Shown here: piece by piece, positions 16,927 to 30,101 of the stretch
Layout: each line of letters starts with the position of its first letter
Position numbering within the stretch: position 1 is the stretch's first letter
NCBI GenBank assembly: GCA_029934085.1
Contig: JAOZMY010000012.1
Span: forward strand, 1-38,489
Reading direction: 5' to 3'
Origin: a bacterium
Lineage (GTDB): Bacteria > Desulfobacterota > S145-22
Length of the DNA: 38,489 nt
The notes under the pieces: model-generated
Seen by the model: the letters and a program-made list of their open reading frames with translations, nothing else
What the model was told of the DNA's origin: nothing
The model's database searches: none
Program-made: the position numbers and the translations under genes

Positions 16927-17251
16927 TTTTCCACTCCGTGTTGAATCATAAAGGATCACCTCCCGCGGTTGCTACTCCATGATTCACAGGAACCTCCACT
17001 TTTAAGTCGTGGCTTTTCACCTTGCCTTTCATTTTTATAAACATTGTTTGAATTCAGGGCTTATTACATACCCAGCTCTACTATTAGATTTTCTAATGTT
17101 AGTATAAATTTATTTATGTTGCGACTTCACAGACGTCATTGTAAAGTCTATAAACCAAAAAGAATCCCTTTGGACTAAATATATAGAGGAAGGAGGTGAA
17201 TTTTCATCTAAAAAACGGGATTTTAAAACAACCTTTATGAAGGAGGTTATT
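16927..17251. other. Non-coding leader region before the PpsA-like gene
   Basis: No gene is visible here. The region holds an 8-bp inverted repeat (TGAATCAT 16942-16949 / ATGATTCA 16979-16986), a weak CCACTTTTAAGT-cGTGG hairpin near 17000, the regulatory module described separately, and a leader of about 100 bases. Within the leader, AAGGAGGTG near 17190 is a perfect ribosome site with no ATG, GTG or TTG at the right distance. A second one (AAGGAGGTTATT) serves the real start at 17252. Confidence 0.6.
17083..17147 (+). promoter_or_regulatory. LysR-type dyad plus promoter of the PpsA-like operon
   Basis: ATTAGA-TTT-TCTAAT (17083-17097) is a perfect 6-3-6 palindrome that fits the T-N11-A LysR box. 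The conserved string ATAAATTTATTTA follows, then -35 TTGCGA (17119-17124) and -10 TAAAGT (17142-17147) with a 17-base spacer. The 42 bases from the dyad to the -35 box match the module at 20218-20259 at 33 positions without a gap. Confidence 0.7.
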
Positions 17252-19087
17252 ATGGCAGGAAAATTCCCCAACCCCCACGAGATTGAAACTATTCCCGGTA
17301 CTGAAGGCTGGGAGCGCATGTATCCCTACTTTTATAGATGGACCACAAAGGATAAAGAACGGGAAGAATATGAAAACAACATGTTCTGGTTCTATGACGG
17401 GCTCCACTACCCGGAACCCATGTATCCCTTCGATATCATCTGGGATGAGGCATGGTTTCTCGCCCTCTCACAAAACAACACCCGGGTCTTCATCGTTCCC
17501 CCCGCTTTAGGGGTCGATCACCGACTCATCAACGGATACATCTATATCTCCCCGGTGCCCGTCCCGGATCCCAACGAGATTCCGAAACGCGCCGAGATCT
17601 TCATGAAACGGGCGGGTTATTATTACCAGCACTGGGACGAACTCTATGAAAAATGGAAAACCAAGATGGTGGACGTCATCCGCCAACTGGAGGCCATCGA
17701 ATTCAAAGAGCTTCCCGAAATGGAAGACGAGTCCCTCGTTTTCGACGGGGTGGGAAAGACCAGTGGGTACGAGCTCCTGAAAAAATACGATGAACTCATC
17801 GATCTGGGTATCCTCACGTGGCAGTACCATTTCGAGTTTCTGAATCTGGGATACGCCGCCTACGTAGTCTTCCTCGATTTCTGCCAGAAAACCTTCCCCG
17901 GCATTTCTCTCCAGCGGGTCACCCAGATGGTATCCGGAATCGACGTCATCATGTACCGTCCCGACGACGAACTGAAAAAACTTGCCAAACTCGCCGTGGA
18001 ACTGGGCGTGGACGGGGAAGTCCTGGCCAGCACGGATGTCGATGCCTTGCTGGAATCCCTTAAACAATCGGAAAATGGCAAGAAATGGGTGGATGCATTT
18101 GAAGAGGCACGGGATCCCTGGTTCTACATCTCTTCCGGAACGGGATGGTATCACCATGACCGCTGCTGGAACGACAATTTGAACGTGCCCATCGACTCCA
18201 TCAAGATTTATATCGAGAAGGTAAAGAAAGGTGAGAACCTGGATCGCCCCCTGGATAAGATCCGCGAGGAACGCGACCGGATCACGGAAGAGTATCGCGG
18301 CCTTCTGGAGACCGATGAAGACCGCCAGCAGTTCGACATGCTCCTCGGTACCTCCCGGACCGTGTTCCCCTATGTGGAAAATCATCTCTTCTACGTGGAA
18401 CACTGGTTCCACTCCATTTTCTGGAACAGGATGCGTCAGGTCGGGGCTTTGCTGAAAAATCACAACTTCATCGGGGATGTGGAAGACATCTGGTATCTCA
18501 GCCGGCACGAGATCAAACAGGCCCTTTGGGACATCGTGACGGCATGGGCAACCGGCACCAAGCCCTACGGCCCTCTCTACTGGCCGGAAGAGGTCGAGTG
18601 GCGGAAAGGCGTGCTCCAGAAGTTCCGTGAATGGACACCCCCGCCTGCCGTTGGAACCGCGCCCGAGAAGATTGAAGAGCCCTTCACCATCGTCCTTTGG
18701 GGAATCACCAACGATACCATGGAATCCTGGGCGAAGGCGAAAGAGGTCGAAAACCTCACCGACCTCACCGAACTTCAAGGTTTCGCCGGGTCTTCAGGTA
18801 AGGTTGAGGGACTCGCGCGGGTCTGCCGCAGCGTGGATGAAATCAATGAGATCCAAGACGGCGAGATCCTTGTATGCCCCACCACATCACCATCATGGGC
18901 ACCCGCCTTCTCCAAGATCCAGGCAGCCGTCACCGATGTCGGCGGGATCATGTGTCACGCCGCCATCGTCTGCCGTGAATACGGCATGCCGGCGGTCGTG
19001 GGAACGGGTGTCGCCACCTCGGCCATCAAGACGGGAGACAAGATCATCGTCGATGGAAACACGGGCAAAATCGAAATTCTGCGCTGA
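17252..19087 (+). CDS. Phenylphosphate synthase-like subunit with phosphohistidine domain
   Basis: The ATG at 17252, seven bases after AGGAGG, is preferred to the upstream ATG in the track. The 611-residue product (about 70 kDa) ends in a PEP-utilising mobile domain (GEILVCPTTSPSWAPAFSKIQAAVTDVGGIMCHAAIVCREYGMPAVVGTG) with the phosphorylated His at 569. The long N-terminal part (WYHHDRCWNDNLNVPIDS) is typical of the 70-kDa subunit of phenylphosphate synthase, which in Thauera works with a 40-kDa ATP-grasp subunit to make phenylphosphate from phenol and ATP. The size split and gene order fit that enzyme. A synthase for another phenolic or enol substrate remains possible. Confidence 0.8.
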   Translation: MAGKFPNPHEIETIPGTEGWERMYPYFYRWTTKDKEREEYENNMFWFYDGLHYPEPMYPFDIIWDEAWFLALSQNNTRVFIVPPALGVDHRLINGYIYISPVPVPDPNEIPKRAEIFMKRAGYYYQHWDELYEKWKTKMVDVIRQLEAIEFKELPEMEDESLVFDGVGKTSGYELLKKYDELIDLGILTWQYHFEFLNLGYAAYVVFLDFCQKTFPGISLQRVTQMVSGIDVIMYRPDDELKKLAKLAVELGVDGEVLASTDVDALLESLKQSENGKKWVDAFEEARDPWFYISSGTGWYHHDRCWNDNLNVPIDSIKIYIEKVKKGENLDRPLDKIREERDRITEEYRGLLETDEDRQQFDMLLGTSRTVFPYVENHLFYVEHWFHSIFWNRMRQVGALLKNHNFIGDVEDIWYLSRHEIKQALWDIVTAWATGTKPYGPLYWPEEVEWRKGVLQKFREWTPPPAVGTAPEKIEEPFTIVLWGITNDTMESWAKAKEVENLTDLTELQGFAGSSGKVEGLARVCRSVDEINEIQDGEILVCPTTSPSWAPAFSKIQAAVTDVGGIMCHAAIVCREYGMPAVVGTGVATSAIKTGDKIIVDGNTGKIEILR

Positions 19088-19104: not shown

Positions 19105-20193
19105 ATGTTTCGAAAGTCTCCGTACATCCTCTGGTTTGAGGAAAGTGGAAGAAAAACGTTCGAACTCGTGGGGGGCAAGGGTGCCAGCCTTGGGGAGATG
19201 ACCAGTGCTGGCATCCGGGTCCCCCCCGGATTTTCCGTAACTACCCAAGCCTACACCGACTTTCTGGATACATTGAAGATCAGAAAGGCCATCTTCACCC
19301 GGCTCAAGGATGTGGATCTCAAGAAGTCCGGAAGCCTGGAAACCATTGGCAAGGAGGTTCGGGAGATCATCCTTGCCCAGGAAATCCCCGAAAAGATCAT
19401 GGAAGCCATCCGAACCGCCTACCGGCAACTGGTGGAAAAAACCGGAGTAAAAGACCTTCCTGTCGCTGTCCGCTCCAGCGCCACGGCGGAGGATCTCCCC
19501 GATGCCAGTTTCGCGGGTCAGCAGGACACTTACCTCTGGGTTACCGGGGAAGAGAGTGTGGTGAAACACACGAAAGATTGCTGGGCCAGTCTTTTTTCGG
19601 ATCGCGCCATCGCCTACCGTCTCAATCACGGCTTCACCCACGAACGGGAAAAGATCTCCGTCGTCGTGCAAAAGATGGTCCACGCCAAATGCGCGGGCGT
19701 CATGTTCACCTTGAACCCCATCAATGGGGACCGCTCCAAGATCTCCATCAATTCAAGCTGGGGACTGGGAGAAACCGTCGTCAGCGGCACCGTTACCCCG
19801 GACGAATTTTTAGTGGACAAAGTAACGTTCGATATCCTGAAACGTATTATCTCACCCAAAGAATTGGAACATCGCGTTAATATCGAAGAAAACCGGGTCG
19901 ATATCGGCCCCGTCCCGGATGATCGCAAAAACGAGCCATCCATTACGGATGATGAACTCTTAGAACTTTGCCGCATAGGGAAACAGATCGAAAAATTCTA
20001 CGGCTCCCCCTCGGATATCGAGTGGGCCGTTGATGCCGACCTTCCCTTTCCGGAGAGCGTCGTAATTCTTCAGGCGCGCCCGGAAACGGTTTGGAGTCAA
20101 AAGCGAAAGAAAGAGCAGAAGAAGAAAGAAGTAAAGACTTCGGACCCTGTCAGCCTGATTGCTGGCATGTGGGGTGCTCCATCTAAAAAATAA
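19105..20193 (+). CDS. Phenylphosphate synthase-like ATP-grasp subunit (PEP synthase N-terminus)
   Basis: This 362-residue protein (about 40 kDa) corresponds to the N-terminal ATP-binding half of PEP synthase: FELVGGKGASLGEMTSAGIRVPPGFSVTT, AVRSSATAEDLPDASFAGQQDTYL, VQKMVHAKCAGVMFTLNP and SPSDIEWAVDADLPFPESVVILQARPETVW. It lacks the phosphohistidine and PEP domains, which are supplied by the preceding gene 17 bases upstream. GGAGG precedes the ATG. It should transfer the pyrophosphoryl group from ATP to the His of its partner. The lysine-rich C-terminal tail (KRKKEQKKKEVK) is unusual for the family. Confidence 0.85.
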   Translation: MFRKSPYILWFEESGRKTFELVGGKGASLGEMTSAGIRVPPGFSVTTQAYTDFLDTLKIRKAIFTRLKDVDLKKSGSLETIGKEVREIILAQEIPEKIMEAIRTAYRQLVEKTGVKDLPVAVRSSATAEDLPDASFAGQQDTYLWVTGEESVVKHTKDCWASLFSDRAIAYRLNHGFTHEREKISVVVQKMVHAKCAGVMFTLNPINGDRSKISINSSWGLGETVVSGTVTPDEFLVDKVTFDILKRIISPKELEHRVNIEENRVDIGPVPDDRKNEPSITDDELLELCRIGKQIEKFYGSPSDIEWAVDADLPFPESVVILQARPETVWSQKRKKEQKKKEVKTSDPVSLIAGMWGAPSKK

Positions 20194-20336: not shown

Positions 20337-21752
20337 ATGAAAGACATGAGAGACTTTATCGAGAAATGCGAAGAAGAAGGGGTCCTGAAGAGAATTACCG
20401 CGGAAGTGGACTGGAATCTGGAACTCTCTCATATCGCAACCTTGAACGAACAAAAACGGGGACCGGTCCTACTTTTCGAGAACGTAAAAGGTTACGACAT
20501 TCCCGTGGTTACCAGTGCCTTCACAACCCCCAAGAAACTGGCCATCGGTCTCGGGATGCCCACGGACAAGACCATGTCCCAGATGGCCAAGGAATGGATG
20601 CAGCTCACTACCAAACAGCTGATCCCACCAAAGACCGTTTCCGACGGTCCCGTCATGGAAATGGTCGTGGAAGGGGATGACGTAAATCTCTTCGATTTCC
20701 CAGCCCCCCAGTTCTACCCGATGGACGGGGGACGTTTCATCGGAACGGCCCATTACATCATCACCAAGGACCCGGATACCGGATGGGTCAACCTGGGAAC
20801 CTATCGTTCCCAGATCCTGGACGACAAGACCATCGGAATTCAGATCATCAAGGGGAAACACGCCGATTTCATGCTGCAGAAATACAAGAAGATGGGCAAA
20901 CCCATGCCGGCCGCGTCGGTCATCGGCTGCGATCCCATCATGTTCCTCGTCTCCAGCACCCTGGTTTCCGCCGAGACCAGCGAATACGACATCGTGGGCG
21001 CCCTCCGTGGCGAGCCGGTGGAAGTCATCGAGAGTGATCTAACGGGTCTGCCCATTCCGGCCCACGCCGAGATCGTCCTGGAAGGCTTCATCGATCCGGA
21101 AAACTTCCGCGAGGAAGGTCCCTTCGGGGAATACACCGGCTACTACTCCGGCAAGGCGGGCGAAGAGCTTCCCAAGCCCTGCATGGAGGTCAAACGGATT
21201 CTTAGGAGAAAGAAACCCATCTTCTGGGCCACCTCCGTGGGAAAACCCGTGAACGACACACACATGATCCAGTCCCTGAACCGGACGGCAACCCTCTGGA
21301 CCGACCTGGAGACCATGCGGGTTCCCGGCATCCAGTCCGTTTACATCCCGCCCGAGTCCACGGGGCGTTTCTGGGCCATCGTCTCCGTGAAACAGATGTA
21401 TCCGGGACATTCCATGCACGTGGGCACGGCGGTCATCTCCACCACCACCGGTCACTACGGCCTCAAAGGCGTTATCGTGGTGGAAGAGGACATCCCCGCC
21501 GACGACATGACCAAGGTCTGGTGGGCGCTGAGCACCCGTTACGACCCGCGGCGCAGCACCCAGATCATCAACCGGGGACGTTCCACCCCATTGGATCCGG
21601 CCCTACCCATCGACGCGCGTGAGATCGTCTCCCGCATCATCATGGACGCCTGTATCCCCTTCGAATGGAAGAAAAAACCGATTGAGATCATGCTGGATGA
21701 AGACACGGTAAAGAAGGTAGAAGCCCGCTGGAGTGAGCTGGGACTCGATTAA
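20337..21752 (+). CDS. UbiD-family prenyl-FMN decarboxylase/carboxylase
   Basis: This 471-residue UbiD-family protein shows LPIPAHAEIVLEGFIDPENFREEGPFGEYTGYYSGKAGEELPKPCMEVKRI, which includes the catalytic Glu region, and full family length. These enzymes use prenylated FMN to add or remove CO2 on aromatic rings. Next to PpsA/PpsB-like genes it is best read as the phenylphosphate carboxylase (PpcA/B-like) that would make 4-hydroxybenzoate. Thauera uses two UbiD paralogues in this step and only one is present here. It has its own promoter. Decarboxylation of a hydroxybenzoate is the alternative direction. Confidence 0.88.
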   Translation: MKDMRDFIEKCEEEGVLKRITAEVDWNLELSHIATLNEQKRGPVLLFENVKGYDIPVVTSAFTTPKKLAIGLGMPTDKTMSQMAKEWMQLTTKQLIPPKTVSDGPVMEMVVEGDDVNLFDFPAPQFYPMDGGRFIGTAHYIITKDPDTGWVNLGTYRSQILDDKTIGIQIIKGKHADFMLQKYKKMGKPMPAASVIGCDPIMFLVSSTLVSAETSEYDIVGALRGEPVEVIESDLTGLPIPAHAEIVLEGFIDPENFREEGPFGEYTGYYSGKAGEELPKPCMEVKRILRRKKPIFWATSVGKPVNDTHMIQSLNRTATLWTDLETMRVPGIQSVYIPPESTGRFWAIVSVKQMYPGHSMHVGTAVISTTTGHYGLKGVIVVEEDIPADDMTKVWWALSTRYDPRRSTQIINRGRSTPLDPALPIDAREIVSRIIMDACIPFEWKKKPIEIMLDEDTVKKVEARWSELGLD

Positions 21753-21885: not shown

Positions 21886-23541
21886 ATGAGAGTTATACGA
21901 TATACCGATGAAATGATTAATGAATTTTCTATGAATGGCTTCTGGACGGATGAAACCTTCTACGATTTCTGGAAACGTAACGCGGAGACATGGCCCGATC
22001 AGGAAGCCCTGGTCGATTCCCACTACCGTATCACCTGGAAGGAAGCCGTGGAACTGGTGGACGCCATCGCGGGGCAGTGGATCGACATGGGATTCGAGAA
22101 GGACACCCGCATCATCATCCAGTCTCCCAACAGCGTTTATGGTTTCCTCGCCCGGATAGCCAGTGAACGGGCTGGCTTGATCGCTCTGACAGTCTATCCC
22201 TATCTCCGACACAAGGAACTGGAATTTATGGCTGAGAAGACCGATGCACAGGCCGTGGTTTTCCCGAGCCTCTACCGGAAGTTCAATTACCTCGAGATGT
22301 TCCGCGAGATTCAGCAGAAACAGCCGTCCATTAAACACTTCTTCCTCCTGGACGAAGAGGTTCCCTCTGGCGCGGGTGAGAATTGCGTCTCCCTCGTCCA
22401 GTTGGCCCAGGAAGGCCTCAAAAAGTCTTATTCAGAGGAGATGTTCCAGGAGCGCCGGTTCAAACCTAAGGAAGACGTGGGGCTCTTAACCAGCACCACG
22501 GGAACCACGGGGCTTCCCAAATTAGTGGAGTGGCCCATCGCCTCGCGTCTCTGCACCTCCAAGGCCCGGATCGATCTCTGGGATCTCACCAACGAAGACA
22601 TCACCGTGGCGGTTGCCCCCCACGCGGGTGGTGCGGCCGGAACGCTGACCTATTTCGCCGCTCCGCTGGCTGGCGCGAAGGTCGTCTTGATGGAGGAGTT
22701 CTCCGCAGAGAGTGCCTTAGAGTTGATTCAGAATGAAAAGGCCACGGCTATCGGCGTGGTGCCCACCCACCTCGTCCGGATGCTCGAGGCGGATGAAACC
22801 AAGTATGATCTCAGCTCTCTCCGCTTCATCCGTTCCGCGGGCGGATATCTCTCCCCACAGGTGGCAGAAGAGGTCGAAGAACGGTTCAAAGCGGTCATCA
22901 CCAGTGACTTGGGAACCCAGGACGTGGGTTCCGTCTCGGGATGCCGCGTGGATGACCCTGTCGAGCTGCGGCGCCGCACCGTGGGCCGGCCCCTTCCCGG
23001 AAACCAGGTAGTCCTCAAAGACGAGAACGGCAATCCCGTTCCCGAGGGAGAACCGGGGATCCTCTGGTTCCGCGGCCCCCACGCCCCGGCCGGCTACTAC
23101 CGCGACCCCGAAATGACCGCAACGGTCTTCCAGGAAAACGGCTGGACTACGACGGGCGACATCGTCAAGTTCGACCGCGGCTGTATGTGGATCCTCGGCC
23201 GGCAGAAGGATATGATCATCCGCGGCGGCCAGAATATCTACCCGGCGGAGATCGAGGGTCTGCTCAACGAACATCCCAAGGTCGCCAACGTGGCCATCGT
23301 GGGCATGCCGGACAAGGAATTCGGCGAACGCGCCTGCGCGTATGTCGTCTGCAAACAGGGCGAGGTCCTCACTTTCGACGAGATGGTGGCCTTTCTCCTG
23401 GAGAAGAAGATCGCCAAGTACAAACTGCCGGAACGCCTTGAAATCATGGATCAACTTCCCACTGTCGGGGACTCCGGCAAGGTCAACAAGAAGGCCCTGA
23501 AGAAAGATATCGAGGAAAAACTGGCGAGTGAGGGGAAATGA
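21886..23541 (+). CDS. Aryl-acid AMP ligase / acyl-CoA ligase
   Basis: This 551-residue ANL enzyme resembles 2,3-dihydroxybenzoate-AMP ligase and cyclohexanecarboxylate-CoA ligase types. It carries the P-loop STTGTTGLPK (near residue 205), the adenylate motif TTGDIVKFDRG, the hinge GRQKDMIIRGGQNIYPAEIE and the catalytic Lys in GDSGKVNKKALK near the C-terminus. AAGGAGG precedes the start. Directly after the UbiD gene, it is the likely 4-hydroxybenzoate (or related acid) activating enzyme of the pathway. Its stop overlaps the region of the next start, implying coupling. Confidence 0.88.
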   Translation: MRVIRYTDEMINEFSMNGFWTDETFYDFWKRNAETWPDQEALVDSHYRITWKEAVELVDAIAGQWIDMGFEKDTRIIIQSPNSVYGFLARIASERAGLIALTVYPYLRHKELEFMAEKTDAQAVVFPSLYRKFNYLEMFREIQQKQPSIKHFFLLDEEVPSGAGENCVSLVQLAQEGLKKSYSEEMFQERRFKPKEDVGLLTSTTGTTGLPKLVEWPIASRLCTSKARIDLWDLTNEDITVAVAPHAGGAAGTLTYFAAPLAGAKVVLMEEFSAESALELIQNEKATAIGVVPTHLVRMLEADETKYDLSSLRFIRSAGGYLSPQVAEEVEERFKAVITSDLGTQDVGSVSGCRVDDPVELRRRTVGRPLPGNQVVLKDENGNPVPEGEPGILWFRGPHAPAGYYRDPEMTATVFQENGWTTTGDIVKFDRGCMWILGRQKDMIIRGGQNIYPAEIEGLLNEHPKVANVAIVGMPDKEFGERACAYVVCKQGEVLTFDEMVAFLLEKKIAKYKLPERLEIMDQLPTVGDSGKVNKKALKKDIEEKLASEGK

Positions 23542-23542
23542 T

Positions 23543-24775
23543 ATGCCCTTACCTTCCATCCTGTTAATTTCTACCCTCGATACCAAGGCGCAGGAAACCC
23601 TGTACCTGAAAGATAGGATCAAAGCACTCGGTGCCCGGCCCGTCCTCATGGATCTCTCCATGGGGACCCCGGATGCCGGAGTTCCGCCCGCCGACATTCC
23701 CTCCTCTGAGGTGGCAAAGGCAGGGGGTAGCACTATCGAGGAGATTCGAAGCTCCCGGGAACGGGCGAAAATCACCGCCACCATGATTGAGGGGGCGAAA
23801 AACCTCGCGAAGGAACGTTTTGAGTCTGGGGAGATCCAGGGCGTGATCGGCCTGGGAGGATCCACCGGCTCCCTCATGGCCACGGAGGTCATGCGGGCGT
23901 TACCTTATGGTGTCGCCAAGCTGATGGTCTCTTCCACCGCCGCACTACCGGGACTGTCCACCCGTTACATCGGCAAAGGAGACATCGCCCTCTTCCATAC
24001 GGTCATCGAGATCTCCGGCCTGAGTAATCTATTGAAGCAGGCCTTGGACCGGGCCGCGCAGGCCATTTGCGCCATGGCGGAGGTTCCCTTACCGGAGACC
24101 CAGCGGGCCAAGGGACAGATCGCCGTCGCCCTGACCATGTTGGGTCCCTGTGAACACTGCGCCAGCGCCGTCCGAAAAAAGCTGGAAGAAAAGGGATGCC
24201 AGGTGATCGGGTTCTCCGCCGCCGGCATCTCGGACGCGGCCATGGAAGACATGGTGCGTCAGGGACTTTTTGACGCCGTTATCGACCTGGCACCGGGGGG
24301 CGTGGGTGAGGCGCTCTGGAAGGGAATGCGCGCCTCCGGACCCCACCGAATGGAGGCTGCCGGGGACATGGGAATCCCCCAAATCATCGCACCATGTAGC
24401 GTTAATTTCATGACCCCCAGGAAGTCCCAGTATAAACCGGACTACTATGAACGGCGCAAGGTGGATCTGGATAAACACCGCACCTGGATCCGCATCTCCC
24501 CGGAGGAGATGGAGGCGGTAGCCGAGGCCTTCGTGGACAAACTCAACCGGGCCAAGGGCCCCGTTCGCGTCGTCATTCCCCAAAAGGGATGGTCCGCCGT
24601 GGACCGGGAAGGAAGCCCAGCCTACGATCCTAACGAAGACACCATCTTCACGAATGTTTTGAAAAAAAACCTGAAAGAGGATATCATCGTCCGCGAAGTG
24701 GACGCGAATTTGGAAGACCCAGAATTCGCTGAGGCAATTGTGGAGGCGTTTTGGGAGATCATTGAAAAACAGTGA
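23543..24775 (+). CDS. UPF0261 / Tm-1-like ATP-binding domain protein
   Basis: The ATG at 23543 follows GAGGGGAAATGAT; the track uses a GTG at 23528 inside the previous gene. The 410-residue protein has the UPF0261 pattern: ILLISTLDTKAQETLYLKDRIKALG at the start, GVIGLGGSTGSLMATEVMRALPYGVAKLMVSSTAALPG, and VNFMTPRKSQYKPDYYERRKVDLDKHRTWIRISPEEM with VVIPQKGWSAVDREGSPAYDPNED near the end. The family includes the N-terminal domain of the plant antiviral protein Tm-1 and has no settled bacterial role. Its tight insertion in an aromatic operon suggests a metabolic or substrate-handling function. Confidence 0.85.
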   Translation: MPLPSILLISTLDTKAQETLYLKDRIKALGARPVLMDLSMGTPDAGVPPADIPSSEVAKAGGSTIEEIRSSRERAKITATMIEGAKNLAKERFESGEIQGVIGLGGSTGSLMATEVMRALPYGVAKLMVSSTAALPGLSTRYIGKGDIALFHTVIEISGLSNLLKQALDRAAQAICAMAEVPLPETQRAKGQIAVALTMLGPCEHCASAVRKKLEEKGCQVIGFSAAGISDAAMEDMVRQGLFDAVIDLAPGGVGEALWKGMRASGPHRMEAAGDMGIPQIIAPCSVNFMTPRKSQYKPDYYERRKVDLDKHRTWIRISPEEMEAVAEAFVDKLNRAKGPVRVVIPQKGWSAVDREGSPAYDPNEDTIFTNVLKKNLKEDIIVREVDANLEDPEFAEAIVEAFWEIIEKQ

Positions 24776-24860
24776 AAAGTAAAAAGTGAAATGTGAAAAG
24801 TTTTAGGTTTTAAGTTATTAAGTTTTTAAGCTTATTCTATTTGAGCCTGGAGCTTCGAGC
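24776..24860. repeat. Low-complexity intergenic repeat (copy A)
   Basis: The spacer holds GTGAAAAGTAAAAAGTGAAATGTGAAAAG followed by AGTTTTAGGTTTTAAGTTATTAAGTTTTTAAGC. The second half recurs before ubiX (copy B, about 28841-28874). Such AT-rich words are dispersed repeats rather than genes. Confidence 0.5.
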
Positions 24861-24891: not shown

Positions 24892-25143
24892 ATGTCAGAA
24901 ACAAAGGAAAAAGACACCGCCAAAAAGGTCGTCAAGGGGCGCACGTCCGGGCAGTTTCGTTGTCTCAACTGCTTCAAACGGCTTACCCCACCTCCGGGGG
25001 CAAAGACGTTCACATGCCCCAACTGCGGATTTGCCTGGCGTATCTACTGGTTTAGTCCCGGCGAACCCCGTATTCGGGGTCCCGTCTGGGAGGTAAATGA
25101 GGCTCAAACGCGGAAAATCATGGCAGAAAAAGGAGGAAAATAG
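24892..25143 (+). CDS. Zinc-ribbon protein resembling VdcD/EdcD-type decarboxylase subunit D
   Basis: The ATG at 24892 has GGGAGGCACAC before it and gives 83 residues. Two Cys pairs (CLNC and CPNC) form a zinc ribbon followed by FAWRIYWFSPGEPRI.. VWEVNEAQTRKI. The order C-x2-C, C-x2-C, W-R, a Pro-rich link and a final T-Q/T-R-K-I-like helix recalls the small D subunit that accompanies UbiX (B) and UbiD (C) in bacterial hydroxyarylic-acid decarboxylases. That likeness is from memory and at motif level. The Shine-Dalgarno of the next gene lies inside its last codons, so it is coupled to the AOR gene. Confidence 0.6.
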   Translation: MSETKEKDTAKKVVKGRTSGQFRCLNCFKRLTPPPGAKTFTCPNCGFAWRIYWFSPGEPRIRGPVWEVNEAQTRKIMAEKGGK

Positions 25144-25144
25144 G

Positions 25145-27052
25145 ATGGCCTTAAGCAAAAAAATCGCCTATATCGACCTGACCAATCGTCGGGTCCGCAC
25201 CGCCCCCATCCCCCTGGAGATGCGGAATCTATACCTGGGTGGCCGGGGGCTGGATATGTATCTCTTATACAACCATGTCAAACCAGGTGCCGATCCCCTC
25301 GGCCCTGACAACGTGGCCCTCGTAAGTGCGGGGCTCTTGACGGGAACCCTCGCCTCGGCCTCCGCCCGGGTGCATGTGGCGGGAAAATCCCCCCTGACAG
25401 GGTTCGTGGGGTCCGCCAATATGGGTGGCTTTTTCGGTCCCGAAATGCGGATGGCCGGGTTCGATCACCTGGTCATCACCGGCAAGGCCGATGGCCCCGT
25501 CTACCTCTGGCTCCACGATGGGGAGATCGAGATTCGAGATGCCTCCCATCTGTGGGGGCATGATGCTCAGCAAACGCAGGTCATGGTCCGCAAGGAGTTG
25601 GGAGACGACGATATCCAGGTCATGACCATCGGTGTGGCCGGTGAAAACCTCGTCCGCTTCGCCTGCGTGATGACCTCTCTGAAGAACGCGGCGGGGCGAA
25701 CCGGCATGGGTGCCCTCTGGGGGTCCAAAAACCTCAAAGCCATCGCCGCCCGAGGGCGAATGGACATCAAGATCGCCTTCCCGGAAGAGGCCCTCGAATA
25801 CAACAAAGAGATTATCACGCAAGTCACTTCAGCCAAGGTCTCCAAGACCATGCAGAAGCTGGGCACCTTGTTCATCTGGGGCACCACCAACTCCACGGGA
25901 CTTGTCCGGACGAGAAATTTTCAGTCCAACCAGATCCCCTACGCCGACGACATCGAACCGGAATCGATCGAGGAAGAGATGATCGGAACAGCGGGATGTT
26001 TCGGCTGCCAGGTTCACTGCCGCGGCCGTTATTTCATCAAGAAAGGCCCCTATACCGGTGCCTACGTGGAGGGCCCGGAATACACCTCACTCGGCGCGTT
26101 CGGAGCCGAGGTGGGCTGCACCACCAAGCAAACCGTCCTGGTAGGGAACCATCTTGTCAACATGTACGGCCTCGACACACTGGAAACCGGCAGTATGATC
26201 TCATGGGCCATGGAACTGTTTGAAAAGGGCATTATCACAACCAAGGACACGGACGGGCTCGAGCTCCGGTTCGGCAACGACGAGGCTGTCATTGAGGCCG
26301 TGCACCAGATCGCCCAGCGTCGTGGCATTGGAGATATCCTGGCGGAAGGCCCCCTCAAGGCGGCCGAGAAGATCGGAGGGGATGCCATCAAGTATCTCAT
26401 CCATGTGAAAGGGATGAGCAACCTTCATTCCGACGAGCGCCCCACGCCGGCCCTGGCCTTGAACATCGCCACGGCTTCCCGAGGGGCGGATCACCTCCGG
26501 AGCCGTCCGGCCATCGACCTCTATCATCTTCCTGAGAAGGTATTGCGGAAGATTTTTGGGAACCCCGTCCCCTATGACGGCCCTCTCACCTCAGATTACC
26601 GTGACTACGAAGGAAAACCCTGGGAAGTTATCTGGCAGGAGATGTGCTACGGAACGGTGGACTGTCTCGGTATCTGCAAGTATCACACCGTCTTTTTGGG
26701 GCCCAATATGCCCAACTTCACTGAGTGGCCCAAGCTCATATACCTGAACACGGGCCTCGAGTTTACCTCCAGGGACCTTTGGGACATCGCTGACCGGGCT
26801 TACACTCTGGAGCGGCTCTTCAACCTGCGTGAAGGCCTCACGCGAGAGATGGACTGGCTTCCCGACCGATATTTCGACGAGAAAACCGACCGTGGTCTTC
26901 CCGTCGTCCGGGGTAAATCGATCGACCGGGAAAAGTTTAAGAAGATGATTGAAGAATATTACAAGCTTCACGAGTGGGACGAAAAAGGCCGACCGACGAA
27001 GAAAAAACTCAAGGCCCTCGGCCTGGAAAACGAACCCTCGCATAAACTATAA
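25145..27052 (+). CDS. Aldehyde:ferredoxin oxidoreductase (AOR family), operon copy
   Basis: The ATG at 25145 follows AAGGAGGAAAATAGG, one base after the zinc-ribbon stop; the longer ORF in the track is not needed. The 635-residue protein has AGLLTGTLASASARVHVAGKSPLTGFVGSANMGGFFGPEMRMAGFD in the pterin domain, Fe-S ligands GCFGCQVHC (Cys285, 288, 292) and DCLGIC (Cys511). With the poly-ferredoxin that follows it resembles AorB/AorA of aromatic degraders. BamB of class II benzoyl-CoA reductase is in the same superfamily, but I see no BamB-specific sequence. An aromatic aldehyde or acid substrate is inferred from context. Confidence 0.88.
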   Translation: MALSKKIAYIDLTNRRVRTAPIPLEMRNLYLGGRGLDMYLLYNHVKPGADPLGPDNVALVSAGLLTGTLASASARVHVAGKSPLTGFVGSANMGGFFGPEMRMAGFDHLVITGKADGPVYLWLHDGEIEIRDASHLWGHDAQQTQVMVRKELGDDDIQVMTIGVAGENLVRFACVMTSLKNAAGRTGMGALWGSKNLKAIAARGRMDIKIAFPEEALEYNKEIITQVTSAKVSKTMQKLGTLFIWGTTNSTGLVRTRNFQSNQIPYADDIEPESIEEEMIGTAGCFGCQVHCRGRYFIKKGPYTGAYVEGPEYTSLGAFGAEVGCTTKQTVLVGNHLVNMYGLDTLETGSMISWAMELFEKGIITTKDTDGLELRFGNDEAVIEAVHQIAQRRGIGDILAEGPLKAAEKIGGDAIKYLIHVKGMSNLHSDERPTPALALNIATASRGADHLRSRPAIDLYHLPEKVLRKIFGNPVPYDGPLTSDYRDYEGKPWEVIWQEMCYGTVDCLGICKYHTVFLGPNMPNFTEWPKLIYLNTGLEFTSRDLWDIADRAYTLERLFNLREGLTREMDWLPDRYFDEKTDRGLPVVRGKSIDREKFKKMIEEYYKLHEWDEKGRPTKKKLKALGLENEPSHKL

Positions 27053-27072
27053 ATGAAGGATGGGAGGCAAAA

Positions 27073-27573
27073 ATGTCAAAAATCCTGGTAATAGATCCTG
27101 AAAAATGCACCGGTTGCCGGCTGTGCGAACAAGTCTGCTCCGTGAAACATGAACGAGTCGTGAACCCCTATCGAGCCCGGATCAAGGTGGTGAAATGGGA
27201 GATGGAGGGAAAGATCCTCCCCGTCGTCTGCCAGCAATGCGAGGATGCCCCCTGCGCGGCGGCGTGCCCCGTTCACGCCATTGCCCGGAATCCGGAGACC
27301 GGCGCGTTGGAGGTCAACTACGACCTCTGCATCGGCTGCCGCACCTGCGTGAACGTCTGCCCGTTCGGCGCCATGGGCTTCGACTGGGTTACCGAACGGG
27401 TCATCAAATGTGACCTCTGCGGTGGGGATCCCCAGTGCGCACGGTTCTGCGAGACAGGCGCCATTCTCTATGTGGACAAGTCTGAGCTCAGCAGCATCAA
27501 GCAGCGGAAAGGTGCAGACTCCCTCATGGAACTCATGACGAAGGTTTCCGCTGCTGTGGCGGGAACGGGTTAA
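27073..27573 (+). CDS. Poly-[4Fe-4S] electron-transfer subunit (AorA/DmsB-like)
   Basis: The 166-residue product has four cysteine clusters: CTGCRLCEQVC, CQQCEDAPCAAAC, CIGCRTCVNVC and CDLCGGDPQCARFC, sixteen Cys in total and enough for four [4Fe-4S] centres. This is the HycB/DmsB-like ferredoxin type. It lies 20 bases after the AOR gene with GGGAGG upstream and should pass electrons between the AOR and a soluble carrier. Confidence 0.9.
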   Translation: MSKILVIDPEKCTGCRLCEQVCSVKHERVVNPYRARIKVVKWEMEGKILPVVCQQCEDAPCAAACPVHAIARNPETGALEVNYDLCIGCRTCVNVCPFGAMGFDWVTERVIKCDLCGGDPQCARFCETGAILYVDKSELSSIKQRKGADSLMELMTKVSAAVAGTG

Positions 27574-27593
27574 CGACGCGCGGAATTCCACTC

Positions 27594-28271
27594 ATGAGCG
27601 AACAAGAACGACCACGACCCTACGCCGGCGTCATCTTCGATCTGGAAGGAACTCTCGTGGACTTCCAGTGGAAGATTGGAGAGGCCGTCGCGAAAGCCAA
27701 AAAGGAAATTGAGGGGTGGGGATGGACGTCCCCGCTCCTTGGTATTTCCGACTACGCCGAACTCTACAACGAAGGAATCCATCGCGCTCCCGACGAATCG
27801 GAGGAAAAACGCTTCCTCGAGGTGGTGGATCGCATCTATGACGAATACGACAAGGACGCCTTGACCCGCTGGAACGCCCAGCCCAGCGCCGACGCACTTC
27901 TCAAGGCCCTGAAAGAGACTGGAACGCCGGTAGCCCTCTGTTCCAACGTGGGCCGCAAGGCAATGGACGGCATCCTGCTGCTTATGGGATGGAGTCGTTC
28001 CTTCAAAGTTACCCTCTCCCGAGATGAGGTCCGGTTTCTCAAACCCGAACCGGAAGGACTGAGCAAGACCATCAAGCTGTTACACCTGTCTCCCTCTGAC
28101 GTCCTCTTCATTGGCGACAGCCGCACCGACATCCGGACGGCGAAGAAGGTGGGATGTGCCGTGGCCGTGGCGGCGCAGGGGGAAAATACCCGAAGGGAGA
28201 TGGAGCCCCTCGAACCGAATCACCTGCTGGCATCCCTGGAACCGCTGATGGAGATTCTAAAACTAAAATGA
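27594..28271 (+). CDS. HAD-superfamily hydrolase, DLEGT motif
   Basis: This 225-residue protein of subfamily IA type has GVIFDLEGTLVDFQW (Asp16, but Glu18 where Asp is usual), a helical cap, CSNVGRK as motif II, the Lys region RFLKPEPEGLSKTI and VLFIGDSRTDIRTAKKVGC as motif IV. In Thauera the delta subunit of phenylphosphate carboxylase is a HAD-like phosphatase, so this gene is a candidate for that role. A general phosphoglycolate-type phosphatase is the alternative. It follows the Fe-S gene by 20 bases with a weak ribosome site. Confidence 0.8.
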   Translation: MSEQERPRPYAGVIFDLEGTLVDFQWKIGEAVAKAKKEIEGWGWTSPLLGISDYAELYNEGIHRAPDESEEKRFLEVVDRIYDEYDKDALTRWNAQPSADALLKALKETGTPVALCSNVGRKAMDGILLLMGWSRSFKVTLSRDEVRFLKPEPEGLSKTIKLLHLSPSDVLFIGDSRTDIRTAKKVGCAVAVAAQGENTRREMEPLEPNHLLASLEPLMEILKLK

Positions 28272-28337
28272 AAACAGGCGTGATAATAGGCTATAGGTGA
28301 GAGGAAATGAACGTGAGGGATTTCTCAAAATCTTTTT

Positions 28338-28440
28338 GTCTCACGCCAAGGCGCAAAGACGCAAATAATTATATTCCAGTTTCACATCACGCGTCACGGA
28401 TTATTGATCACAAAAACTCAGTCCTCAGTTCTCAGTCCTC
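28338..28440. repeat. Intergenic repeat words and CTCAGTY tandem
   Basis: GTCTCACGCCAAGGCGCAAAGACGCAAA (28338-28365) is a widely dispersed intergenic word in bacterial genomes. At 28417-28440 the seven-base unit CTCAGT(C/T) is repeated 3.4 times just before the next start codon. The spacer has no gene. Confidence 0.5.
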
Positions 28441-28450
28441 GATTTGATCT

Positions 28451-28843
28451 ATGGAATGGACAGTTAAAACCACCGGTGACTATCCCATTGAGGCAGCTGT
28501 GCGCGTCTTAGGCGACGACCTTCTCATCGCCGTATGGGGCGGCACGCACCCCCATATCGGGGCCGTCGGTATCGCCCACCCCCGCCCAAGTTTGAAGGAC
28601 CCGGAACAGATCAGCGCAACCGCGTCCATCTACACCGTCATCGGCCATAAGGAAGACGCCGTGGTCCAGAAGATGGCCACGGAAATTGCTGCTGCCCTCA
28701 ACCGGATGATTGTGGTCACCGCCGGCATCCACTGGGATGACCTCACTCCCGAGGCCATCGGAAAAATTGTTGAGGGATGCGAAACCCTCACGTGGAAGAT
28801 CATTGAAGAAGCGAAAGGAAAAATAGGAACAAAATCAAGTTAG
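28451..28843 (+). CDS. LpdD-like protein (prenyl-FMN decarboxylase accessory)
   Basis: The 130-residue product (YPIEAAVRVLGDDLLIAVWGGTHPHIGAVGIAHPRPSLKDPEQISATASIYTVIGHKEDAVVQKMATEIAAALNRMIVVTAGIHWDDLTPEAI) matches my recollection of the family annotated as prenylated-flavin chaperone LpdD-like, named after gallate decarboxylase subunit D. Hallmarks are HIGAV, RPSLKDP, GHKED and VVTAGIHWD. It lies immediately before ubiX, as expected for UbiD maturation. No good ribosome site is seen, because the start abuts a repeat. The family call is by eye. Confidence 0.65.
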   Translation: MEWTVKTTGDYPIEAAVRVLGDDLLIAVWGGTHPHIGAVGIAHPRPSLKDPEQISATASIYTVIGHKEDAVVQKMATEIAAALNRMIVVTAGIHWDDLTPEAIGKIVEGCETLTWKIIEEAKGKIGTKSS

Positions 28844-28888
28844 TTTTAGGTGTTACATTATTAAGTTTTAAGCCACTTAAAACTTCTT
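28841..28888. repeat. Low-complexity intergenic repeat (copy B)
   Basis: AGTTTTAGGTGTTACATTATTAAGTTTTAAGC matches copy A near 24802 apart from short gaps, and is followed by its partial inverse CCACTTAAAACTTC. It sits just upstream of ubiX. Confidence 0.45.
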
Positions 28889-28912
28889 TTGCTTACACAA
28901 AAGGATAGAATC

Positions 28913-29479
28913 ATGGACAGACTTGTCGTCGGCATATCAGGAGCGAGCGGTGTCATCTACGGTGTCCGCTTTCTGGAAATCGCCTCCAAGCTACCCTTGG
29001 AAATCCATCTGATCATCTCCAACGCTGCGAAGAAAAACCTGGAGATCGAAACGGAATATACAGCCCGTGACCTGGAAGCGATGGCGCATACAGTCTATGA
29101 CCCCGGAGACTTGGGAGCCCCCGTCAGCAGTGGCTCCTTTCTCACCCTCGGCATGGTCATCATCCCCTGTTCTATTAAAACCCTCTCGGGCGTCGCCAAT
29201 TCCTTTAATGACACCCTGCTGATCCGAGCCGCCGACGTCAGCCTGAAAGAACGGCGCAAGACCGTCCTCGTGGTTCGGGAAACCCCGCTTCACCTGGGGC
29301 ACTTGAAACTGATGGAGAGGGTCACGGAATCGGGCGCCGTCATCTTCCCGCCCATTCCCGCCTTCTATCACAAGCCCAAAAAGATAGAAGATATCATCGA
29401 CCACAGTGTTGGCAAGGTGCTCGACCAGTTCGGCATCGAACACCACCTCTTCAAACGTTGGGGCGAAACGGAGAAATAA
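28913..29479 (+). CDS. ubiX: UbiX-type flavin prenyltransferase
   Basis: The ATG at 28913 follows AAAAGGATAGAATC. The 188-residue protein starts with VGISGASGVIYGVRFLEIASKL and contains APVSSGSFLTLGMVIIPCSIKTLSGVANSFNDTLLIRAADVSLKERRKTVLVVRETPLH, the UbiX fold and prenyl/FMN site. It joins dimethylallyl phosphate to FMN to make the cofactor used by UbiD enzymes, so it directly serves the UbiD gene at 20337. Its stop is one base from the next start. Confidence 0.93.
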   Translation: MDRLVVGISGASGVIYGVRFLEIASKLPLEIHLIISNAAKKNLEIETEYTARDLEAMAHTVYDPGDLGAPVSSGSFLTLGMVIIPCSIKTLSGVANSFNDTLLIRAADVSLKERRKTVLVVRETPLHLGHLKLMERVTESGAVIFPPIPAFYHKPKKIEDIIDHSVGKVLDQFGIEHHLFKRWGETEK

Positions 29480-29480
29480 C

Positions 29481-30101
29481 ATGGATTTCGACATCCTCTG
29501 GCAAACCTGCAAGCCCTACCTTGAAAAGGGCCGCCCCATCGATCTGGCCCACACGCGGATCAGCACCGATTTCGCCTGGCGCCTCCTGAGGGAAGGTATT
29601 AAAGGAGACGAAGACATCGTCATCCCCGCCATCATGCTCCACGACATCGGATACTCACAGATCGACGACAAAGACGTCTACATGAAAACCACATTCCCCG
29701 ACAAGGCCAATGCCCAATATGACATCCACGTCAAGGAGCTGCATCTGACGGAAGGCGCAAAGCTGGCGGAGAAGATTTTGAAAGAACTGAATTATCCGGC
29801 GCGATTGATTCCCCCCATTGTGGAAATCGTTCGGACCCATGAAGACCTCCAAGGCAACAAGCCGGATCAGAGTAACATGAACCGGGTCATTGTCAGCGAC
29901 GCGGATAAACTCTACCGCTACACCGCCTACAACATCACCAGCGGTATGACAATGCACCACAGAAAAAGCGAGGAAACCTTCCGCTTCATGTTCAAAAACA
30001 TTGACACCTGGCTCTGCCTGGAGATCTCAAAGCGCATTGCCATCGAAGAATTACGAAAACTTCCCTACGACTTCGGGCAAATAAACAAAGAATTATTCTA
30101 A
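29481..30101 (+). CDS. HD-domain phosphohydrolase-like protein
   Basis: The 206-residue product shows the HD signature: LAHTRISTDFAWRLL (His24), then IVIPAIMLHDIGYSQID (His54-Asp55), then a conserved EGAKLAEKIL.. VEIVRTHEDLQGN and VSDADKLYRYTAYN. These residues bind divalent metal in phosphohydrolases acting on nucleotides or phosphomonoesters. The substrate is not known. It starts one base after ubiX, which suggests a linked role. Confidence 0.85.
   Translation: MDFDILWQTCKPYLEKGRPIDLAHTRISTDFAWRLLREGIKGDEDIVIPAIMLHDIGYSQIDDKDVYMKTTFPDKANAQYDIHVKELHLTEGAKLAEKILKELNYPARLIPPIVEIVRTHEDLQGNKPDQSNMNRVIVSDADKLYRYTAYNITSGMTMHHRKSEETFRFMFKNIDTWLCLEISKRIAIEELRKLPYDFGQINKELF

Follow-up and report, generated by a model that had tools for sequence, protein, structure and literature searches.

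The question and the locus

The question raised by this locus is whether one UbiD enzyme is served by two different small accessory subunits of the D type. The window, by which we mean the whole 38,489-nucleotide stretch analysed here (positions 1 to 38,489 of contig JAOZMY010000012.1, assembly GCA_029934085.1, from a bacterium of the Desulfobacterota lineage S145-22), encodes a zinc-ribbon protein of 83 amino acids (aa; 24892-25143, hereafter ZNR) and a protein of 130 aa (28451-28843). An original prediction, made from the sequence alone, had likened these to VdcD/EdcD and to LpdD, respectively, and had placed both beside one phenylphosphate-type UbiD. Both open reading frames (ORFs) are present on the + strand with ATG starts. 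Each protein is conserved in relatives, and the ORFs are thus not products of chance. The UbiD itself (20337-21752, + strand) is of the phenylphosphate carboxylase beta-type, scoring 638 bits against TIGR02724, over the equivalog cutoff of 469, and it keeps the N-x4-R (NLGTYR) and EGPFGE motifs in alignment with characterised members. It is highly probable that two separate modules, UbiD/UbiX/LpdD and zinc-ribbon/oxidoreductase/iron-sulphur (Fe-S) protein, stand here in one operon-like run, and that ZNR is a dedicated accessory of the aldehyde:ferredoxin oxidoreductase (AOR).

Comparison of ZNR with VdcD

ZNR resembles VdcD/EdcD/BsdD in being small, with four cysteines in two CXXC knuckles, the second of which is followed by a W-R. 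The cysteines (C24, C27, C42 and C45) are invariant in the ZNR family and are predicted to bind zinc; such knuckles are typical of many zinc ribbons and hence unspecific. No match was found between ZNR and the VdcD profile NF041205 even at E<=10, whereas Bacillus subtilis BsdD, a VdcD-type control, matched at 8.9e-32. Profile-profile alignment with hhalign, using 22 ZNR relatives against three VdcDs, gave a probability of 3.4%, and thus no homology was detected. In the VdcCD structure, residues R12, R36 and E39 of VdcD contact D173, E31 and R133 of VdcC (PMC8379154). Of these docking residues R36 is kept in ZNR and the E39 position is occupied by an invariant tryptophan (W53), while the alignment places Asn, Gln and Asp of the window UbiD at the VdcC positions E31, R133 and D173. 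Moreover, ZNR differs from VdcD in lacking the Pro-rich tail and in its genomic partner, which is an AOR rather than a UbiD. A true VdcD was found in only 2/395 genomes of the phylum.

We therefore rejected ZNR as a VdcD/EdcD subunit, given the missing profile match, the low hhalign probability, the largely absent docking pairs and the AOR neighbourhood. A role for ZNR in UbiD cofactor loading was dropped too, there being no UbiD link. The profile search had been chosen beforehand as the check that could overturn the VdcD/EdcD assignment, and it places ZNR outside NF041205 and in a separate, AOR-linked family. Because ZNR is not a VdcD/EdcD, the notion of two D-subunits on one UbiD fails. A fold search with the ZNR model returned nothing significant (best E 0.29); matches to RBR RING2 and LysW were weak and were not trusted.

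Linkage of ZNR to one AOR clade

ZNR carries its CX2C...CX2C knuckles within the invariant framework R-C-x2/4-C-x2-R ... C-x2-C ... R-x2-W ... G-P-V-W, and its stop codon is separated by a single base from the AOR start (MALSKK...) at 25145. Relatives with strong scores occur in 50/395 genomes of the phylum. Across 40 surveyed loci, an AOR of one clade is the next same-strand gene after ZNR in 35, with a Fe-S protein next in most, and ZNR and AOR are for the most part separated by 1-4 nt or share 14 nt; a UbiD lies within the examined stretch at three. A scan of named genomes, partly shared with the phylum survey, gave 79 usable ZNR loci from Desulfobacterota, Chloroflexota (Dehalococcoidia) and Aminicenantes. 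The AOR is directly downstream in 77 of these, the other two loci stopping at a contig edge, and a UbiD is nearby in two, so that the expectation for a VdcD of being encoded with a vdcC-type ubiD failed for ZNR. The original prediction had allowed that one of the two small proteins might serve the AOR, and this hedge is the right reading for ZNR.

The near-obligate linkage is also seen at the level of whole genomes. Among the 395 genomes, 50 hold ZNR, 47 the AOR clade and 45 both, where 5.9 would be expected. The window's own genome contains 10 AFOR_N matches and a single ZNR, and therefore ZNR is tied to one AOR clade and not to AORs generally. ZNR thus defines an uncatalogued family directly upstream of one tungsten AOR clade, in which the GPVW tail is invariant and is preceded by K/R-I/V-R/K in nearly all relatives.

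The AOR of the window (25145-27052, + strand, 635 aa, with a CX2CX3C motif) is of the WorL type and has Pyrococcus furiosus AOR (PfAOR) as its closest solved relative. It scored 373 bits against PfAOR (1aor) and 231 against BamB, and a BamB-type benzoyl-CoA (coenzyme A) reductase was rejected because PfAOR is closer. The Fe-S protein that follows (27073-27573, + strand, 166 aa) has 16 cysteines, fitting four [4Fe-4S] motifs. A Class II tungsten-containing oxidoreductase consists of a WorL large subunit and a WorS small subunit with four Fe-S clusters (PMC13328260). The tandem pair in the window fits such a WorL-WorS enzyme by its sequence features, with the difference that a zinc-ribbon gene is added directly upstream; the main text of the Class II classification makes no mention of zinc (PMC13328260).

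In the same classification WorX, a MoaD/ThiS-like protein, was proposed for pterin biosynthesis (PMC13328260). MoaD/ThiS-like genes, recognised by eye, lie near ZNR and AOR at two loci (L165, 5694-5981; L215, 2-250), which fits the WorX idea. LutB-like and LutA/HdrB-like proteins, likewise identified by eye from the sequence, are encoded beside the ZNR-AOR-Fe-S trio in L040 (7610-9641) and L165 (8664-10770). These two loci span Desulfobacterota and Dehalococcoidia, and the Lut/Hdr-like neighbours suggest a shared electron-transfer partner.

The 130-aa protein as a member of the LpdD family

The second small protein bears out the prediction made for it. It matched Pfam PF21758 at 7.2e-35 (119.6 bits, cutoff 27) over the whole domain, and its sequence matched the solved LpdD chains in the PDB at about 2.5e-9. 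A structure predicted from 13 relatives had a mean pLDDT (predicted local distance difference test) of 94, and in the fold search the top six PDB matches of this model were all LpdD (E 2e-9 to 4e-8, template-modelling score 0.75-0.84), and behind these came PAC3/PAC4 and Pba3/4, which are proteasome assembly chaperones. Solved LpdD has itself been reported as similar to PAC3/PAC4 and Pba3/4 (PMC10865409). Judged by profile, sequence and predicted fold, the 130-aa protein is a member of the LpdD family.

By experiment, LpdD is a chaperone of reduced prenylated flavin mononucleotide (prFMNH2) that binds prFMN only when reduced and aids the activation of apo-UbiD; its Mn ligands are H35, H61 and D63, and prFMNH2 binding is lost in H35A (PMC10865409). 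The window protein places H35, H66 and E68 at these three positions, the third ligand being Glu and not Asp. Among the aligned relatives H35 occurs in 41/42 rows and H61 in 42/42; at the D63 position 36 rows have Glu and 6 have Asp. These counts are drawn from a 44-row set with gaps excluded only where printed. Compared with LpdD of Lactiplantibacillus plantarum (PDB 8PO5, 8PZO, 8PZH and 8P4W), the window protein has the same fold, the PF21758 domain, the H35/H61 ligands and a gene adjoining ubiX, but it is only ~27% identical and has Glu at the Asp63 position. Moreover, the L. plantarum protein works with gallate decarboxylase, whereas the gene of the window protein belongs to a cluster of phenylphosphate type in a lineage of anaerobes.

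A real case of both D-types was seen in another genome of the phylum (G276), where LpdD-like, UbiD and true VdcD genes are consecutive (L144, G276:C1, 8361-10627). The LpdD-like protein of this locus has Arg at the H35 position, and a second LpdD of the same genome (L124), encoded beside UbiX, keeps H35. Outside the bacteria, Methanosarcina acetivorans has a PF21758 protein scoring over the cutoff.

PF21758 is present in 81/395 genomes of the phylum. In 21/38 loci examined UbiX follows LpdD either directly or after one other gene, as in the window (28913-29479, + strand, with its start at an ATG within the TTG ORF at 28889), and the order Pps-UbiD-ligase-UPF0261-LpdD-UbiX recurs in several LpdD loci. 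The co-occurrence survey suggested along with the original prediction came out differently for its two proteins: in a set of 67 beta-type UbiDs, collected irrespective of LpdD, LpdD lies within 15 kb of 21 members and ZNR within 15 kb of 4. In the literature LpdD is described as only rarely adjoining UbiD. Given the share of genomes, loci and UbiDs above, this statement looks too strong for the present phylum.

Relation of the two modules

The ZNR-AOR and LpdD/UbiD modules lie side by side in the window's own family and in one genome (G231) of another family. Among the named genomes, genes for LpdD, UbiX or UPF0261/ligase lie ~6 kb or less from ZNR in L158, L159 (in the direct order LpdD-UbiX-ZNR-AOR-Fe-S), L180/L182 and L215. 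Beta-type UbiD is found in 30 ZNR genomes against 8.2 expected, or in 14 families against 3.9, an enrichment inflated by the kinship of genomes and based on a family total of 107, the highest family label seen. Together, the recurrent co-localisation and the enrichment suggest a shared aromatic pathway, and not a physical partnership of ZNR with UbiD.

The run belongs to a phenol-type gene cluster. On the + strand, in order, are two Pps-type subunits, UbiD, CoA ligase, UPF0261, ZNR, AOR, Fe-S protein, HAD phosphatase, LpdD, UbiX and an HD-domain protein. The phenylphosphate-synthase-type large subunit (17237-19087, 616 aa, resembling the C-terminal part of phosphoenolpyruvate synthase), assigned from the gene pair, is the one that we take to correspond to Thauera PpsA, and the ATP-binding subunit (PPDK_N, 362 aa) follows at 19105-20193. 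Downstream of UbiD are the acyl/aryl-CoA ligase (AMP-binding, 551 aa; 21886-23541) and the UPF0261 protein (415 aa; 23528-24775). UPF0261 proteins (Tm-1-like) were also seen at nine loci from several families, where phenylphosphate-type clusters encode them beside the ligase and LpdD. The HAD phosphatase (225 aa; 27594-28271) may be a functional counterpart of the phosphatase subunit of phenylphosphate carboxylase, and the HD-domain gene (29466-30101) overlaps the UbiX stop.

The Pps-type synthase, beta-type UbiD and phosphatase gene are shared with the phenylphosphate carboxylase of Thauera aromatica (PpcABCD) and with the reduced sets of Geobacter and Desulfatiglans. The window differs from these in having one UbiD, LpdD and UbiX within the cluster, and another HAD type. 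The gamma subunit is absent in Geobacter and D. anilini (PMC7500099). Neither small protein of the window matched a phenylphosphate carboxylase gamma model in NCBIfam at E<=10, the presence of such a model in this library being unconfirmed. Scans of the window for promoters and terminators gave no more signals than shuffled sequence. A 28-nt AT-rich repeat, 89% identical, occurs in the gap 5′ of ZNR (24799-24834) and in the LpdD-UbiX gap (28842-28869), and a second, different AOR (597 aa) is encoded on the - strand at the window edge (405-2198).

Proposed roles and competing explanations

We propose that UbiX would make prFMNH2, and that LpdD would bind it and pass it to the phenylphosphate-carboxylase-type UbiD, thereby aiding cofactor incorporation and UbiD maturation under anaerobic conditions. 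As for the function of ZNR, we infer that it most probably joins WorL and WorS as a small third subunit of the enzyme, or else acts as an assembly factor, and that it is likely to contact AOR through the invariant GPVW tail. The AOR may oxidise an aromatic aldehyde or reduce an acid on the same route as the carboxylase, for example where aromatic aldehyde oxidation joins a 4-hydroxybenzoate branch.

Several observations weigh against this division into two modules with ZNR dedicated to AOR. UbiX is not immediately downstream of LpdD in 17/38 loci; the co-occurrence counts lack phylogenetic independence, and close relatives were used in the scan of named genomes; and the genome-level enrichment with beta-type UbiD makes some in-trans functional tie between ZNR and UbiD conceivable. 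That enrichment, together with the position of ZNR in the same operon-like run as UbiD and the common Cys pattern and W-R, could also be taken to mean that ZNR has diverged from VdcD/EdcD yet still acts as such a subunit, bound to this UbiD and keeping the UbiD active-site loop in place, which would give a UbiD with two different D-type partners. We consider this scarcely credible, as NF041205 and hhalign detected no relationship, the docking residues on both proteins have largely changed, the Pro-rich tail is missing and nearly all family members stand beside an AOR without a UbiD. Only a little less improbable is that ZNR binds nucleic acid and regulates the AOR operon. The best database similarity of ZNR, itself weak, is to small archaeal zinc-ribbon proteins that bind RNA (27 residues, E 2.8e-4), and PRK14890 also matched (0.0016). 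However, the match is limited to the generic Cys knuckles, the GPVW tail is not found in the matched proteins, the fold search was without a significant match and separate LysR or IclR-like genes lie near such clusters.

The alternative that we take most seriously, while still holding it to be less probable than not, makes ZNR a maturation factor of AOR, acting in tungstopterin insertion or Fe-S assembly and not as a lasting subunit. ZNR is short and is encoded beside the AOR gene, WorX-kind genes are found near it in L165 and L215, and in three genomes (L066, L072 and L073) it lies after or away from AOR; yet one ZNR per AOR and the tight coupling suit a subunit equally. Lastly, the AOR module may stand beside the phenylphosphate cluster by chance and be metabolically unconnected to it, which we regard as unlikely. 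The surroundings of most ZNR-AOR loci are free of UbiD, UbiX and LpdD, but LpdD, UbiX or UPF0261 recurs by ZNR-AOR in the named loci and in G231, and ZNR and beta-type UbiD are enriched together at genome level.

Implications

Beyond the two-module reading, one could suppose that ZNR is an undescribed conserved third component (‘WorZ’) of a tungsten oxidoreductase clade in Desulfobacterota, Chloroflexota and Aminicenantes, needed for assembly or for electron/substrate docking, in an enzyme that shares its anaerobic aromatic pathway with the LpdD-assisted phenylphosphate-type carboxylase, a proposal that we hold about as readily as its opposite. The analysis separates two look-alike ‘small helper’ annotations, which matters for rebuilding anaerobic carboxylases. 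LpdD is found repeatedly in phenol-type clusters, which makes it a promising protein to co-express with UbiDs of this kind that are hard to activate. Moreover, a widespread tungsten AOR clade has in ZNR a so far uncatalogued partner, and members of this clade may fail in heterologous hosts that are not supplied with it.

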